Shown here piece by piece: positions 19,115 through 25,373 of a stretch of DNA of 64,000 nucleotides. Both the position numbers and the translations under genes were made by a program. Below the pieces are notes generated by a model. That model saw only the letters and a list, made by a program, of their open reading frames with translations, searched no databases and had not been told where the DNA came from. Position 1 is the stretch's first letter. Each line of letters opens with the position of its first letter. Origin of the DNA: Prauserella aidingensis (GTDB lineage Bacteria > Actinomycetota > Actinomycetes > Mycobacteriales > Pseudonocardiaceae); contig NZ_JAMTCN010000004.1 of assembly GCF_024171865.1 (NCBI RefSeq), positions 124,001 to 188,000 of the forward strand, given 5' to 3'.

Positions 19115-20122
19115 TCAGGCCTGCTCGCCGCGGTCGACCCGCCGCCGCTGCGGCACGACGACGTACTTCGGGTCGCGGGTCGACTCGACACCGGCCTCGA
19201 AGATCCCGAACCGTTGCAGCGCGCTCCCCGCGAGCAACGCCAGCCCCGAGACGACACCCGCCGCACGGCTCCGGCCGGCCAGCAGGCTGCCCAAGGCGCC
19301 GCCTGCCGTCAGATACTCGGACCATTGCCGCAACCGGTGCGCCGTGCCCGTCCGGTAGGCCTCGCTGACGATGCCGAGTCGCTCGTCGAGTTGGCGGGAC
19401 GTGACCAGTTCCGTGACGGCGCCGACCGCGGCGAGTTTCCGCGCCGGTTCGGCCTCGTCGACGGGCGCGCACACCATGCCGAACCCGCCGCCGGCCGCCG
19501 CGGCGGAGCCCGCGAACACGAACGGCAGTCGATCACGGGCCTCGTTCCAGGCGGGCACCGCCGTGTGCGACAGCAGCACGGCCGTGTACGACGCCACGCC
19601 CGGTGCCAGCGCGGCCGACGCCAGACCGGCCGGGCGCGCCAGCGCGCCCAGCAGCTTCCCGAGCCACGTCCGCCGCAGCCGCGACGGCAGGAGTTCCGCC
19701 ACCGCCGCGGCACCGACGCCCGGACCGTAGGCGACGAGCAGCCACGTCCCGACGCTCATCGGGGAGCTCGGTTTCGCCACGCGCAGCATGTGATGGAAAC
19801 GTTCGGGCCTGCCCAGGTCGGCGATCAGCAGGTACGTGCTCGCGCCGAGACCGCCGAGCGCGCCGAGGCGCGTAGCTTTGCGCAGCCGTGGCCTGCGGGT
19901 CAGGTCGGCCCCCGCGGCGAGCTCGGCGCACGCCGCCGACAACCCGCCCGTGAACAGGTACGCCGGCACGAGCCACTCCCACACCGGCTCCTTCAGCACC
20001 CGCCTGCCGTAGTAGGAGCGGAAATCCCCCTCGGCGGAAGCGGGGGCCGCGTCCGACGCCGCGGCGGGGATGGTTCGCTGCTGCGCGGCGTCGGCGCTCA
20101 TGCGGCCCAGCGACCGGCTCAT
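19115..20122 (-). CDS. fdhC: formate dehydrogenase membrane subunit, NrfD-like
   Basis: 335-residue NrfD/PsrC-type membrane protein. After a cytosolic N-terminus it has YYGRRVLKEPVWEWLVPAYLF leading into the first of about eight hydrophobic helices; LGRPERFHHMLRV is a typical NrfD loop. It should anchor the FdhAB pair and pass formate electrons to menaquinone. No haem ligands of the FdnI cytochrome type are evident. ATG 20122 overlaps the fdhB stop (ATGA, 20119-20122). As last gene of the operon, its C-terminus is hydrophilic and ends shortly after a DPKYVVVPQRRR segment. Confidence 0.88.
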   Translation of the reverse strand: MSRSLGRMSADAAQQRTIPAAASDAAPASAEGDFRSYYGRRVLKEPVWEWLVPAYLFTGGLSAACAELAAGADLTRRPRLRKATRLGALGGLGASTYLLIADLGRPERFHHMLRVAKPSSPMSVGTWLLVAYGPGVGAAAVAELLPSRLRRTWLGKLLGALARPAGLASAALAPGVASYTAVLLSHTAVPAWNEARDRLPFVFAGSAAAAGGGFGMVCAPVDEAEPARKLAAVGAVTELVTSRQLDERLGIVSEAYRTGTAHRLRQWSEYLTAGGALGSLLAGRSRAAGVVSGLALLAGSALQRFGIFEAGVESTRDPKYVVVPQRRRVDRGEQA

Positions 20123-21039
20123 CGGCGGCTCCGTCCGAAGAAGACGGACACGGCCGTCGCGGCGAACGCCGCCGCGGCCACGCCCGCGCGCGCCCACATC
20201 GACCCTGCGTCGCGCGTCGGCACGACCGGGTCGGGCGGCAGTCCGTACACCTCGGGCTCGTCCAGCAACAGGAAGAACGCCCCGTCACCACCGACGCCGT
20301 CGTTCGGGTCCTCGCCGTACAGCCGCGCCTCGGTGATGCCGCGATCGTGCAACGTCGCGACCCGTTCGCGCGCCCGCTCCCGCAGTTCGTCCAACGGTCC
20401 GAACTGGATCGAGTCGGTCGGGCAGGCCTTGGCGCAGGCCGGTTCCAGGCCGTCACCCAGCCGGTCGTAGCACATGGTGCACTTCCACGCCCTGCCGTCG
20501 TCCTCGCGGCGGTCGATCACGCCGTAGGGACAGCCCGAGACGCAGTACCCGCAGCCGTTGCAGATGTCGTCCTGCACGACCACGGTCCCGAACTCGGTGC
20601 GGAACAGTGCGCCGGTCGGGCAGACGTCGAGGCATCCGGCGTGCGTGCAGTGTTTGCACACGTCGGAACTCATCAGCCACCGGAAGTCGGTCCGCGACTC
20701 CTCACCCGTCCCCGCGCCGGGCAGGTCGAACGACGGCAACCCCAGGTCGACCGCGGTGGCCTCGTCCGTGCGGCGCTCCGGCGCGGGCTGTTCGATGAAC
20801 GCCACGTGCCGCCACGAGTTCGCGCTCAACTCGCCCGTGTTGTCGAACGACATGCCGAGCAGGTCGAACCCGTCGTCCGGGAGGAGGTTCCACTCCTTGC
20901 ACGCCACCTCGCACGCCTTGCAGCCGATGCACACCGACGTGTCGGTGAAGAACCCGACCCGCTCCGGGTGCTCGGTGTACCCGGCATCACCCGAGACGTC
21001 GTCCAGCGGCCCGAAGGAGCTCTCCCGCGAGACGGTCAT
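20119..21039 (-). CDS. fdhB: formate dehydrogenase iron-sulfur subunit
   Basis: 306-residue ferredoxin-like beta subunit with four [4Fe-4S] motifs: CIGCKACEVACKEW near residue 37, CKHCTHAGCLDVCPTG, CNGCGYCVSGCPYGV, and CTMCYDRL with CAKACPTDSI. This matches the FdnH/FdoH architecture that carries electrons from FdhA to the membrane subunit. A single C-terminal hydrophobic helix (ARAGVAAAAFAATAVSVFFG) resembles the FdnH anchor. ATG 21039 has GGAGGAGG upstream and overlaps the fdhA TGA (ATGA, 21036-21039). Confidence 0.95.
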   Translation of the reverse strand: MTVSRESSFGPLDDVSGDAGYTEHPERVGFFTDTSVCIGCKACEVACKEWNLLPDDGFDLLGMSFDNTGELSANSWRHVAFIEQPAPERRTDEATAVDLGLPSFDLPGAGTGEESRTDFRWLMSSDVCKHCTHAGCLDVCPTGALFRTEFGTVVVQDDICNGCGYCVSGCPYGVIDRREDDGRAWKCTMCYDRLGDGLEPACAKACPTDSIQFGPLDELRERARERVATLHDRGITEARLYGEDPNDGVGGDGAFFLLLDEPEVYGLPPDPVVPTRDAGSMWARAGVAAAAFAATAVSVFFGRSRR

Positions 21040-24000
21040 GCGTCCTCCTCCCGATCGGTCGTGCCCTGTGCTGTCGCGTCCTGTGTTGTCGCGTCCGGTG
21101 CTGTCGCGCGTGGTCCGGTCGTGTCGGACGCCGTCGTGTCGGCCGTCATCACGTGCGTGCCGGTCTCCACGGTCACCCCGGCGCGCCTGCGGTACTCCGC
21201 GAGGTAGTCGAGCAGTTCACGTCCCCGCGGACGCCTGCCTGGCCGGATGTCGCACGTGGCGACCTTGCTCTCCTGGATCATCGTGTTCGGGTCCAGGACC
21301 ACGCCGAGCAGATCGTTGACGACGTCGCCGTCGACCTTGCCGCTCGGCCCCCAGTGGTACGGCATCCACACCTGGTGCACCACCCGGCCGTCGAGCCGCA
21401 ACGGCCGCATGCGCTCGGTGACGAGCACCCGCGCGTCGACGGCCGCGCGGCTCGTGACCACGTGGGCCCAGTCGAGGTTCTCCAGCCCCCTCTCGGCCGC
21501 CAGCTGCGGCGAGACCTCCACGAACAGCGCGGGCTGCAGCTCCGACAGGTACGCCAACTGCCTGCTCATACCGCCGGCCGTGTGGTGCTCGGTCAGCCGC
21601 GCGGCGGTGAACACGAACGGGAACACGTCGCCACCGCTCTCCGGCGGCGACGGGTTCGACGGGTTGTCCTCGCGCCCGTACACCTTGCGTGCCGGATTGC
21701 CCTGCTGGCCGTAGAGCAGGTTCGGCATCGGCGATTCGTGCGGCTCGTAGTGCGTGGGCAGCGGGCCGTCGGCGACACCGCTCGGTGCGAACAGCCACGC
21801 CTTGCCGTCGGCCTGCATGATGAACGGATCGTCCCCGGCGAGCGCACCCGGACCGGACTCGCCGTACTCGGGTTCGAACTCGGGCGGCGTGGTCTTCGGG
21901 AAGTCCGGCACGTCGTGGCCGGTCCACTCGCCGCGCTCGGCGTCCCACCAGACGAGCTTCTTGCGCTCGCTCCACGGCCTGCCCTGAGGGTCGGCGGAGG
22001 CGCGGTTGTAGAGCACCCGCCGGTTGGCGGGCCATGCCCAGCCCCATTCGAGCGCCGTCTCGTCCTGCTCGGTCCGCGCGGTGCGGTTGCGGGCGTGGTT
22101 GACGCCGCCCGCGTAGACGCCGCTGTAGATCCAGCAGCCCGCGGCGGTCGTGCCGTCGGACGTGAGCTGCTGATAGCTGTCGAGGAGTTCGCCCGTCGTC
22201 AGGTCCACCCCGTTGATGCGGCGCAGCACGTCGTCGGCCGACGGTTCGGGGAACTCGCCGTCGCCCTCGGTCCGGTAGTCCCACGCCAGGTCCAGCAACG
22301 GCCGGTCCCGCTCGTCGGTCGAGCCGGCCAGCTCGCTCCGCAGGATCCTGCCCAGGTGGTAGATGAACCACAACTCGGAGCGCTGATCACCGCGCGGCTC
22401 GAGAGCACGGTCGCGCCACTGCAGCATCCGCTGGGTCTGGGTGAACGTGCCCTCCTTCTCCACGTGCGAGGCGGCGGGGAAGAAGAACACCTCGGTGCGG
22501 CACTGTTCGGCGACGATCTCGCCGGTCTCGATCTCCGGCGCGTTGCGCCAGAACTCGGCGCTCTCGATCATCGTCAGGTCGCGTACGACGAGCCAGTCGA
22601 GGTTGGCCATGCCGAGCCGCTGCAACCGGCCGTGCGCGGAGCCGACCGCGGGGTTCTGACCGAGCAGGAAGTAGCCGAACACCTTCCCGTCGATCATGTC
22701 CATCACGGTGCGATACGTGCCGTGGTCGCCGTCGATGCGCGGCAGGTAGTCGAACCGGTAGTCGTTCTCCTCCGTGGCCGCGTCGCCCCAGTACTCCTTG
22801 AGCAGCGAGACGATGTAGTCGTCGGCGTTGTGCCAGTAGCCCTTCTGGTGCGTGCCGCGGATCGACTCGACGTAGTCCCGCTTGTCGGCGTGCCGCGAGT
22901 CGGGCATCGGCAGGTAACCGGGCAGCAGGTTGTACAGCGTCGGGATGTCGGTCGAGCCCTGGATGCTCGCGTGCCCGCGCAGCGCCAACACTCCCCCGCC
23001 GGGCCTGCCGATGTTGCCGAGCAGCAGCTGGATGATCGCGCCCGCGCGGATGTACTGGGCGCCCATCGAGTGCTGAGTCCAGCCGACGCTGTAGACCAGC
23101 GCCGCGGTGTGTTCGCGTCCGGACGCGCTCGTCCACGCCCGGCAGACCTCGAGGAAGTCCTCGCGGGAGACACCGCAGATGCGCTCCACCATCTCCGGCG
23201 TGTACCGCGAGAAATGGCGTTTCAGGATCTGGAACACGCAGCGCGGATGCTGAAGCGTCTCGTCGGTCGCGATGCCGGTTCCGCTCTCGAGTTTCGGCCC
23301 GCCCGATCCGTGCTGCTCGCCCGCGGACTGCTCGCGGTGCCGCTCGCCTTCGACCGAGTCCTCGGGGAAGCCGTTCTCGTACTGCCACGTCGACGTGTCG
23401 TACGTGCCCGTCTCCGGGTCGTAGCCCGAGAACAGCCCGTCGAGGTCCTCCGTGTCGGCGAACTCCTCACCGACCAGGAACGGCGCATTCGTGTAGGCCT
23501 GCACGTACTCCCGGAAGTCCAGGTCGTTCGACAGGATGTGGTTGATCACGCCGCCGAGGAACGCGATGTCCGAACCCGCCCGCAGCGGGACGTGCTTGTC
23601 CGCGAGCGCGCTCGTCCGCGTGAACCGCGGGTCGACGTGCAGCACCTTCGCACCGCGGGCCTTCGCCTCCATGACCCACTGGAAGCCCACCGGATGGGCT
23701 TCGGCCATGTTCGAGCCCATGATGACGATGCAGTCGGCGTTGGCCAGGTCCTGCTGATAGTCCGTCGCACCACCGCGACCGAAGGAGGCTCCCAGACCGG
23801 GAACCGTGGCGGAGTGTCAAATACGCGCCTGGTTCTCGATCTGCACCGCGCCGAGCGCCGTGAAGAGCTTCTTGATCAGGTAGTTCTCTTCGTTGTCGAG
23901 GGTCGCCCCTCCGAGGCTGGCGATGCCCTGCGTCCGCCGGAGCGGCTTGCCGTCGGCGTCGGTCTCCTGCCAGCCCTTGCGGCGGGCGTCGAGCACACGG

Positions 24001-24398
24001 TCGGCGAGCATGTCCATCGCCGTCGGCAGGTCGAGCTCCTGCCACTCGGTGCCGTACGGCGCCCGGTACAGCACGCGCTCCTCACGGTGGTCACCGGTGA
24101 CGAGCTGCTTGCTGGCCGAGCCTTTCGGGCACAACCGCCCCCGTGAGACCGGGCTGTCCGGGTTGCCCTCGATCTGCAGGACCCGCTCACCGGCGTCGTC
24201 GCTGCCGACGTAGACGTTCTGGGCGCACCCGACCGCGCAGTACGGACACACGGACGCGGCCACCCGGTCGGCGTCGGCGGTACGCGGTTCGCGCTCGCGG
24301 GACTTCGGCGAGGCCGCCGCGTCGCCCCTGCCGAGCCGGTCGGCACCCGTGAGCTGACGATAGACCGGCCAGGACCGGATCCAATCGCTCACACCCAT
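21036..24398 (-). CDS. fdhA: formate dehydrogenase catalytic subunit, selenocysteine-containing
   Basis: 1120-residue molybdopterin formate dehydrogenase, oxidising formate to CO2. Cys51, Cys54, Cys58 and Cys90 (VCPYCAVGC, RLCPKG) bind the N-terminal [4Fe-4S] cluster. Codon 194 is an in-frame TGA at 23817-23819 in the context NQARI-U-HSATVPGLGAS, exactly where formate dehydrogenases place their Sec/Cys Mo ligand. Both halves are in one frame, and a SECIS-like hairpin follows the UGA. Ordinary gene calling would split it into 193-residue and shorter 3' pieces. No twin-arginine signal is seen, so the subunit probably faces the cytoplasm. ATG 24398 has GGAGG upstream. Function needs sel genes, none of which lie here. 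Confidence 0.95.
23787..23819 (-). promoter_or_regulatory. Bacterial SECIS element of fdhA with its UGA codon
   Basis: In the mRNA the UGA (23819-23817) is followed after 11 nt by GGUUCCC, a GGUCU apical loop, and GGGAGCC. The seven-pair stem includes one G-U pair. Spacing and the GGUCU loop match the E. coli fdhF-type SECIS recognised by SelB. The structure lies inside coding sequence, as bacterial SECIS elements must. Confidence 0.92.
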
Positions 24399-24473: not shown

Positions 24474-25373
24474 TCACGCCAGCCCGCGGATCACGTGAGC
24501 GGGTGACCTCGTCCCCCGGATCACCGACACCATGTCCAGCGCCTGGCACGTCTCGGCCACGTTGTGCGCACGGAACACCGCCGCGCCCTGCCACGCGCAC
24601 ACCGCCGTGGCGGCGAGCGTGCCGTGCAGGCGTTGATCGACCGGCAGATCGAGCGACTCGCCGACGAAGTCCTTGTTGGACAGCGCCACCAGCACCGGCC
24701 ACCCGGTGTCGACCAGCCGTCCCAGCTCTCGGGTGAGCGTCAGCGAGTGCCAGGTGTTCTTGCCGAAGTCGTGCGTGGGGTCGATCAGGATCCCCTCCGC
24801 GGGGACGCCGAGCCCGACCAGCTCCTCGGCCCGGTCGGTCACCTCGGTGATCACGTCGGCCACGACGTCGGGGTAGTGCACGCGGTGCGGCCGGGTGCGC
24901 GGGACCGCGCCGCCGGTGTGCGAGCACACGTACCCCGCGCCGTACTCGGCCGCGATCTCCGCGAGCCCGGGGTCGGCGCCAGCCCACGTGTCGTTGAGCA
25001 GGTCGGCACCCTCCTCGCACGCGAGCCTGCCGACCTCCCGGCGCCAGGTGTCGACGCTGATCACCGCCTCCGGGAACCGCTCCCTGAGCCGCGTCACGAA
25101 CGGCACCACGCGCCGTGTCTCCTCGTCGACGTCGACGTCCGCACCCGGCCCCGCTTTCACCCCGCCGACGTCGATGATGTCCGCACCGTCGGCGAGCGCC
25201 CGCTCGGCCGCCGCGAGGGCTTCGTCGGCGGCGTAGGTCGCACCCCGGTCGTAGAACGAGTCGGGCGTGCGGTTCACGATGGCCATGACCAATGGCCGGT
25301 CCCGGCGCATCGCCCTGCCGCGGAAACGGATCACGGAATCTGCGGAAGTCTCACCGGTCTGCACGCCTCCCAA
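24474..25373 (-). CDS. folP2: dihydropteroate synthase homologue, FolP2-like
   Basis: 299-residue TIM-barrel protein of the pterin-binding family. VMAIVNRTPDSFYDRGATY and DVGGVKAGPG replace the usual N.TPDSF.DGG and DIGGES motifs, and a distinctive SHTGGAVPRTRPHRVHY loop is present. This matches mycobacterial FolP2, which is reported not to be a functional dihydropteroate synthase. The TTG at 25373 has GGGAGG seven nt upstream; a GTG at 25364 would be too close to its GGGAGG. It lies 75 bp upstream of fdhA in the same direction, so readthrough is possible, though a functional link is not obvious. Confidence 0.88.
   Translation of the reverse strand: MGGVQTGETSADSVIRFRGRAMRRDRPLVMAIVNRTPDSFYDRGATYAADEALAAAERALADGADIIDVGGVKAGPGADVDVDEETRRVVPFVTRLRERFPEAVISVDTWRREVGRLACEEGADLLNDTWAGADPGLAEIAAEYGAGYVCSHTGGAVPRTRPHRVHYPDVVADVITEVTDRAEELVGLGVPAEGILIDPTHDFGKNTWHSLTLTRELGRLVDTGWPVLVALSNKDFVGESLDLPVDQRLHGTLAATAVCAWQGAAVFRAHNVAETCQALDMVSVIRGTRSPAHVIRGLA

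Follow-up and report, generated by a model that had tools for sequence, protein, structure and literature searches.

The gene for the alpha subunit of a formate dehydrogenase (FDH) in Prauserella aidingensis carries an in-frame TGA, which raises the question of whether this codon ends the protein or specifies selenocysteine (Sec). The locus lies in a stretch of 64,000 nucleotides (hereafter the window, whose numbering is used throughout). From its sequence, it is nearly certain that the locus encodes a membrane-linked fdhABC-type FDH in which Sec would be inserted at UGA codon 194 by SelB and tRNA-Sec, directed by a hairpin just downstream. This reading, which agrees with the initial annotation, is strongly supported by a conserved and covarying hairpin, an alignment to E. 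coli FdnG, and the sel genes of the same genome. The relevant features are the following.

21036..24398, minus strand: fdhA, FDH alpha subunit of 1120 residues with predicted Sec at 194 (NF041513, PDB 1kqf)
23817..23819, minus strand: UGA codon 194, putatively read as Sec (reading frame, FdnG alignment, relatives)
23787..23805, minus strand: SECIS hairpin with arms 23799-23805 and 23787-23793, loop GGUCU 23794-23798, and conserved core 23788-23804
20119..21039, minus strand: fdhB, 4Fe-4S beta subunit (TIGR01582, Pfam Fer4 domains)
19115..20122, minus strand: fdhC, NrfD-type membrane (gamma) subunit (Pfam PF03916 NrfD)

A single frame of 1120 codons plus a stop runs from the ATG at 24398 to the final TGA at 21036, and its only internal TGA is codon 194, in the context NQARI-U-HSATV. 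A plain ORF list divides this frame into products of 193 and 894 aa; the frame reading bears out the earlier claim that both halves share one frame. When read through, FdhA matches the NCBIfam family NF041513 (formate_DH_Act) with 1901 bits against a cut-off of 1400. The match spans the site (FdhA residues 6-1072, model positions 2-1067 of 1067), and no difference from the family is seen over this full length. FdhA is also homologous over most of its length to E. coli FdnG (FDH-N alpha, PDB 1kqf), with an E value of 1.1e-208. The alignment pairs codon 194 with a residue printed as X, which we take to be selenocysteine, and Sec at this position would probably be a ligand of Mo (or W).

With its alpha-beta-gamma plan, the locus corresponds to a molybdopterin-dependent membrane FDH of the fdhABC type. 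The fdhB start codon overlaps the fdhA stop (ATGA), and an ATGA overlap with fdhB likewise suggests that fdhC starts at 20122. FdhB contains Pfam Fer4 domains and scores 189 bits against TIGR01582, under the cut-off of 334.7, while PF03916 (NrfD) is matched with 57.5 bits by the ORF at 19115-20197. As in FDH-N/O-type loci, an Fe-S beta subunit and a membrane gamma subunit adjoin alpha, with the beta subunit below its model cut-off and the gamma subunit of the NrfD type. Electrons from formate would pass through FdhB to the quinone-linked NrfD-type subunit. The twin-arginine pair that marks the FDH-N/O type is not visible by eye at the FdhA N-terminus, which makes a cytoplasm-facing enzyme likely and is the reason for placing FdhA in the actinobacterial family rather than with FDH-N itself. 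FdhD is found in the same assembly. Upstream of fdhA and 75 bases from it is an ORF of the dihydropteroate synthase family in the same orientation (TIGR01496; window 24474-25373, minus strand).

The prediction that selA, selB, selC, and selD would be found elsewhere in the genome holds for all four, which adjoin each other on contig C2 of the draft assembly (80 contigs, completeness 99.95), with fdh on contig C5. The tRNA-Sec scores 72.1 bits, over its cut-off, and is assigned the anticodon TCA by ARAGORN; selA and selD score 422.7 and 387 bits, respectively. SelB barely exceeds its curated cut-off (242.3 against 242.25 bits; 250 bits in another search) with a match that covers only model positions 2-354 of 581. 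It nevertheless combines a GTPase domain with a C-terminal SelB-wing_3 domain, and SelB chains are its top matches in the PDB.

RNA folding places a 7-bp stem with the loop GGUCU 11 nt after the TGA, as the initial annotation had described, but the stability of this structure is ordinary when compared with shuffled sequences. Positions 23787-23819 fold at -11.5 kcal/mol (z -0.75; 44 of 200 shuffles equal or better) and positions 23780-23822 at -12.6 kcal/mol (z -1.16; 24 of 200), and in 23770-23822 the same stem sits inside a larger fold (z -0.45; 66 of 200). An Rfam search of the window gave no match at gathering scores. Folding energy was rejected as evidence for a SECIS, with weak z-scores for the window and for three TGA-bearing relatives; support for the hairpin comes instead from comparison among relatives. 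The description of the element as fdhF-like stands in part. In E. coli fdhF (three records listed with that annotation), GGUCU is equally far from the UGA, but the arms are in a different register. Drawings of the fdhF hairpin show a bulged U and a loop of 4 nt, whereas that of the window is predicted to have no bulge and a 5-nt loop.

The comparison covers 111 sequences, namely, the window, the best 80 of at least 594 confirmed stretches, and the 30 best loci from same-family genomes; the two sets may share species, so not all sequences are independent. The site is TGA in 105 of the 111, including all of the best 80, and TGC (Cys) in the other six. Together with the FdnG alignment, this places the in-frame UGA where homologues have Cys or Sec, as had been claimed. 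One TGA locus, L094 from a Frankiales MAG, has CTC (Leu) after the TGA in place of the CAC (His) of the other 104, which is damage or error in the MAG; the search motif requires the His codon and misses this locus, and hairpin pairs were counted in the remaining 104 sequences. The inner six stem pairs form, from the outside in, in 104, 104, 103, 104, 104, and 104 of these, and the outermost (seventh) pair in just 53. In addition, the locus of Saccharomonospora sp. CUA-673 (L089:6588-6629) has lost one base within the 3′ arm or immediately beyond it, which shifts the frame and is possibly a sequencing error.

Covariation was assessed in 54 of the 55 distinct TGA 42-mers; L089, whose 3′ arm is one base short, was set aside. 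Pairing across the 6-bp core stem reaches 99.7% and falls to at most 69% when the stem partner is shifted. One pair joins two silent third positions, of a Val and a Gly codon, and occurs as CG (22), UA (19), UG (10), GC (1), and GU (1), with one sequence unpaired. None of 500 shuffles reached the covariation score; double-sided changes occur in only one of the six pairs, a pair count equaled by 102 of 500 shuffles. Three of the six pairs are invariant, and many of these bases are fixed by the protein. None of the 54 sequences varies at loop columns G23 and T24. Like a SECIS, the element lies just 3′ of the UGA, keeps its pairing across relatives, and has an apical G-U, with folding energy alone not significant. 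The 5′ arm codon for Val199 is GUU in 53 of the 104 TGA sequences, compared with 1.1% of 6183 downstream Val codons of the same genes. In the six TGC sequences, the pair beside the variable one never forms, the innermost pair forms in two, and the loop U is lost, while the other three constant or near-constant pairs form in all six. Silent-site covariation may serve as a compact SECIS test in high-GC actinomycetes, for which folding energy alone is unhelpful here.

The loop is GGUCU in 86 of the 104 TGA sequences, AGUUU in 12, and AGUCU in 6. The latter two constitute a second class (18 of 104), in which a Ser codon replaces Gly, and are found at L098-L101, L104, L107-L111, L113, L115-L118, L120, L125, and L127.

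Three other explanations of the TGA can be weighed against this background. If it were a true stop, fdhA would be a pseudogene or its halves would be translated separately, the second from the ATG at 23720, and an ORF of 894 aa whose ATG lies 99 nt past the start of the TGA is indeed present. However, the 32 codons from the TGA to this ATG contain no stop in 102 TGA loci (L089 and L094 excluded), retain a mean amino acid identity to the window of 0.877 with 741 silent and 403 replacement codon changes, and align to FdnG. The recurrence of TGA at the same codon in nearly all sequences compared, its replacement by a Cys codon in the rest, and the presence of the sel genes also speak against a stop, which is extremely unlikely. 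A fault of sequencing or assembly might be suspected in a draft of this kind, but the same TGA and hairpin recur in separate assemblies, including those of Prauserella isguenensis (L020) and P. rugosa (L019), which leaves this explanation a vanishingly small probability.

Alternatively, a near-cognate or suppressor tRNA could read the UGA as an ordinary amino acid such as Cys or Trp, with the sel genes serving some other purpose. Cys at this site in the six TGC relatives would suit such a reading, which is nonetheless very unlikely: the genome has selA, selB, selD, and a tRNA-Sec whose anticodon matches UGA, and the silent-site covariation of the hairpin would be left without a role. Furthermore, formate removal in Actinomycetospora chiangmaiensis needs selenite (PMC7176365). 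Insertion of Sec by SelB and tRNA-Sec is the reading retained here, and the locus is a clean example for the annotation of in-frame UGA codons.

The occurrence of tRNA-Sec was compared with that of UGA-bearing FDHs in 43 genomes. A tRNA-Sec over the cut-off occurs in all 15 genomes that carry a TGA-containing FDH (the present one and the 14 TGA genomes with the highest scores), in 2 of the 10 for which the listed FDH lacks a TGA (all such rows listed), and in 3 of 18 without a match near the FDH cut-off (the genomes with a weak best match within G001-G045, excluding the 74% complete G011 and G028 with its partial match). Altogether, tRNA-Sec is present in 5 of the 28 genomes for which no TGA FDH is listed. 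In G002, G016, G034, G115, and G031 (L139-L143 around tRNA-Sec), both tRNA-Sec and selD are over cut-off. No UGA-bearing FDH is among the matches listed for these five genomes, nor is there a SECIS match to search model R1 at E < 0.2.

R1 clearly matches a single site in the P. aidingensis genome itself, that of fdhA (70.5 bits), which is among the sequences from which the model was built, and weakly matches three more (E 0.147, 0.339, and 0.915; 150 of 7702 candidates were scored). Among the candidates scored, a further selenoprotein sharing this SECIS was rejected. R1 reads sequence besides structure, as its weak matches inside TGC-containing FDH genes of G023 (34 bits), G029 (29.3 bits), and G109 (22.6 bits) reveal. 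Among the TIGR01591 matches listed for the present and the five discordant genomes, only the window gene and low-scoring pieces on G002:C41, where both TGA and TAG occur, bear internal stops; no listed SelD match in these genomes has an internal stop. Frames interrupted by UGA near tRNA-Sec (14 kb in the present genome, about 20 kb in each of the five) were uninformative by eye. Inspection of active-site motifs shows Cys (TGC) at L144, L145, L146, L147, and L150; L148 (present genome), L149, and L151 have no clear site.

It is tentatively proposed, as a possibility that is on balance doubtful, that the actinobacterial FDH SECIS is a subtype of its own (a 6-bp unbulged core and three forms of a 5-nt loop) recognized by a SelB that poorly fits the general model in its C-terminal half, and that tRNA-Sec and selD are retained in a few relatives for selenoproteins that these searches did not detect.

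The assignment of a Sec-containing FDH is correct and ordinary, as such enzymes are already known in actinomycetes; the locus adds one actinomycete to the known Sec users and leaves the picture unchanged. The initial annotation's remark that selenoproteins are credited to few such actinobacteria is not upheld, as 173 of 297 genomes of the same family score above the NF041513 cut-off and published cases exist. Among the matches listed in these genomes, most have one TGA, 10 have none, and one has two. The best 80 of at least 594 confirmed stretches, all with the TGA, come from a wide range of actinobacterial genera, including Mycobacterium, Streptomyces, Micromonospora, Amycolatopsis, and Nocardioides. 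A 2006 survey ranks Actinobacteria in the top three phyla for selenoprotein families, with Symbiobacterium and its 12 selenoproteins counted among them (PMC1794560), and a 2016 survey names FdhA and SelD as the most widespread bacterial selenoproteins (PMC5029168).

Two published systems are close to the present one. According to a 2020 report (PMC7176365), A. chiangmaiensis has three Sec FDH systems with a SECIS prediction and selenite-dependent formate removal, and proteomics detected FdhA, SelA, SelB, and SelD at low abundance. Its FDH1 and the window locus have in common a Sec alpha subunit encoded with a UGA and a SECIS, accompanying beta and gamma subunits, and genomic selA, selB, and selD, but selA and selB are listed with FDH1, whereas sel and fdh occupy C2 and C5 here. 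In Streptomyces incarnatus, a selABCD cluster accompanies a Sec FDH-O that has a SECIS (Oshima et al. 2015, PMC4498112); this species shares with the window the Sec alpha subunit, the UGA with its SECIS, and all four sel genes; its sel cluster lies near fdh, in contrast to the separate contigs of the present draft assembly.
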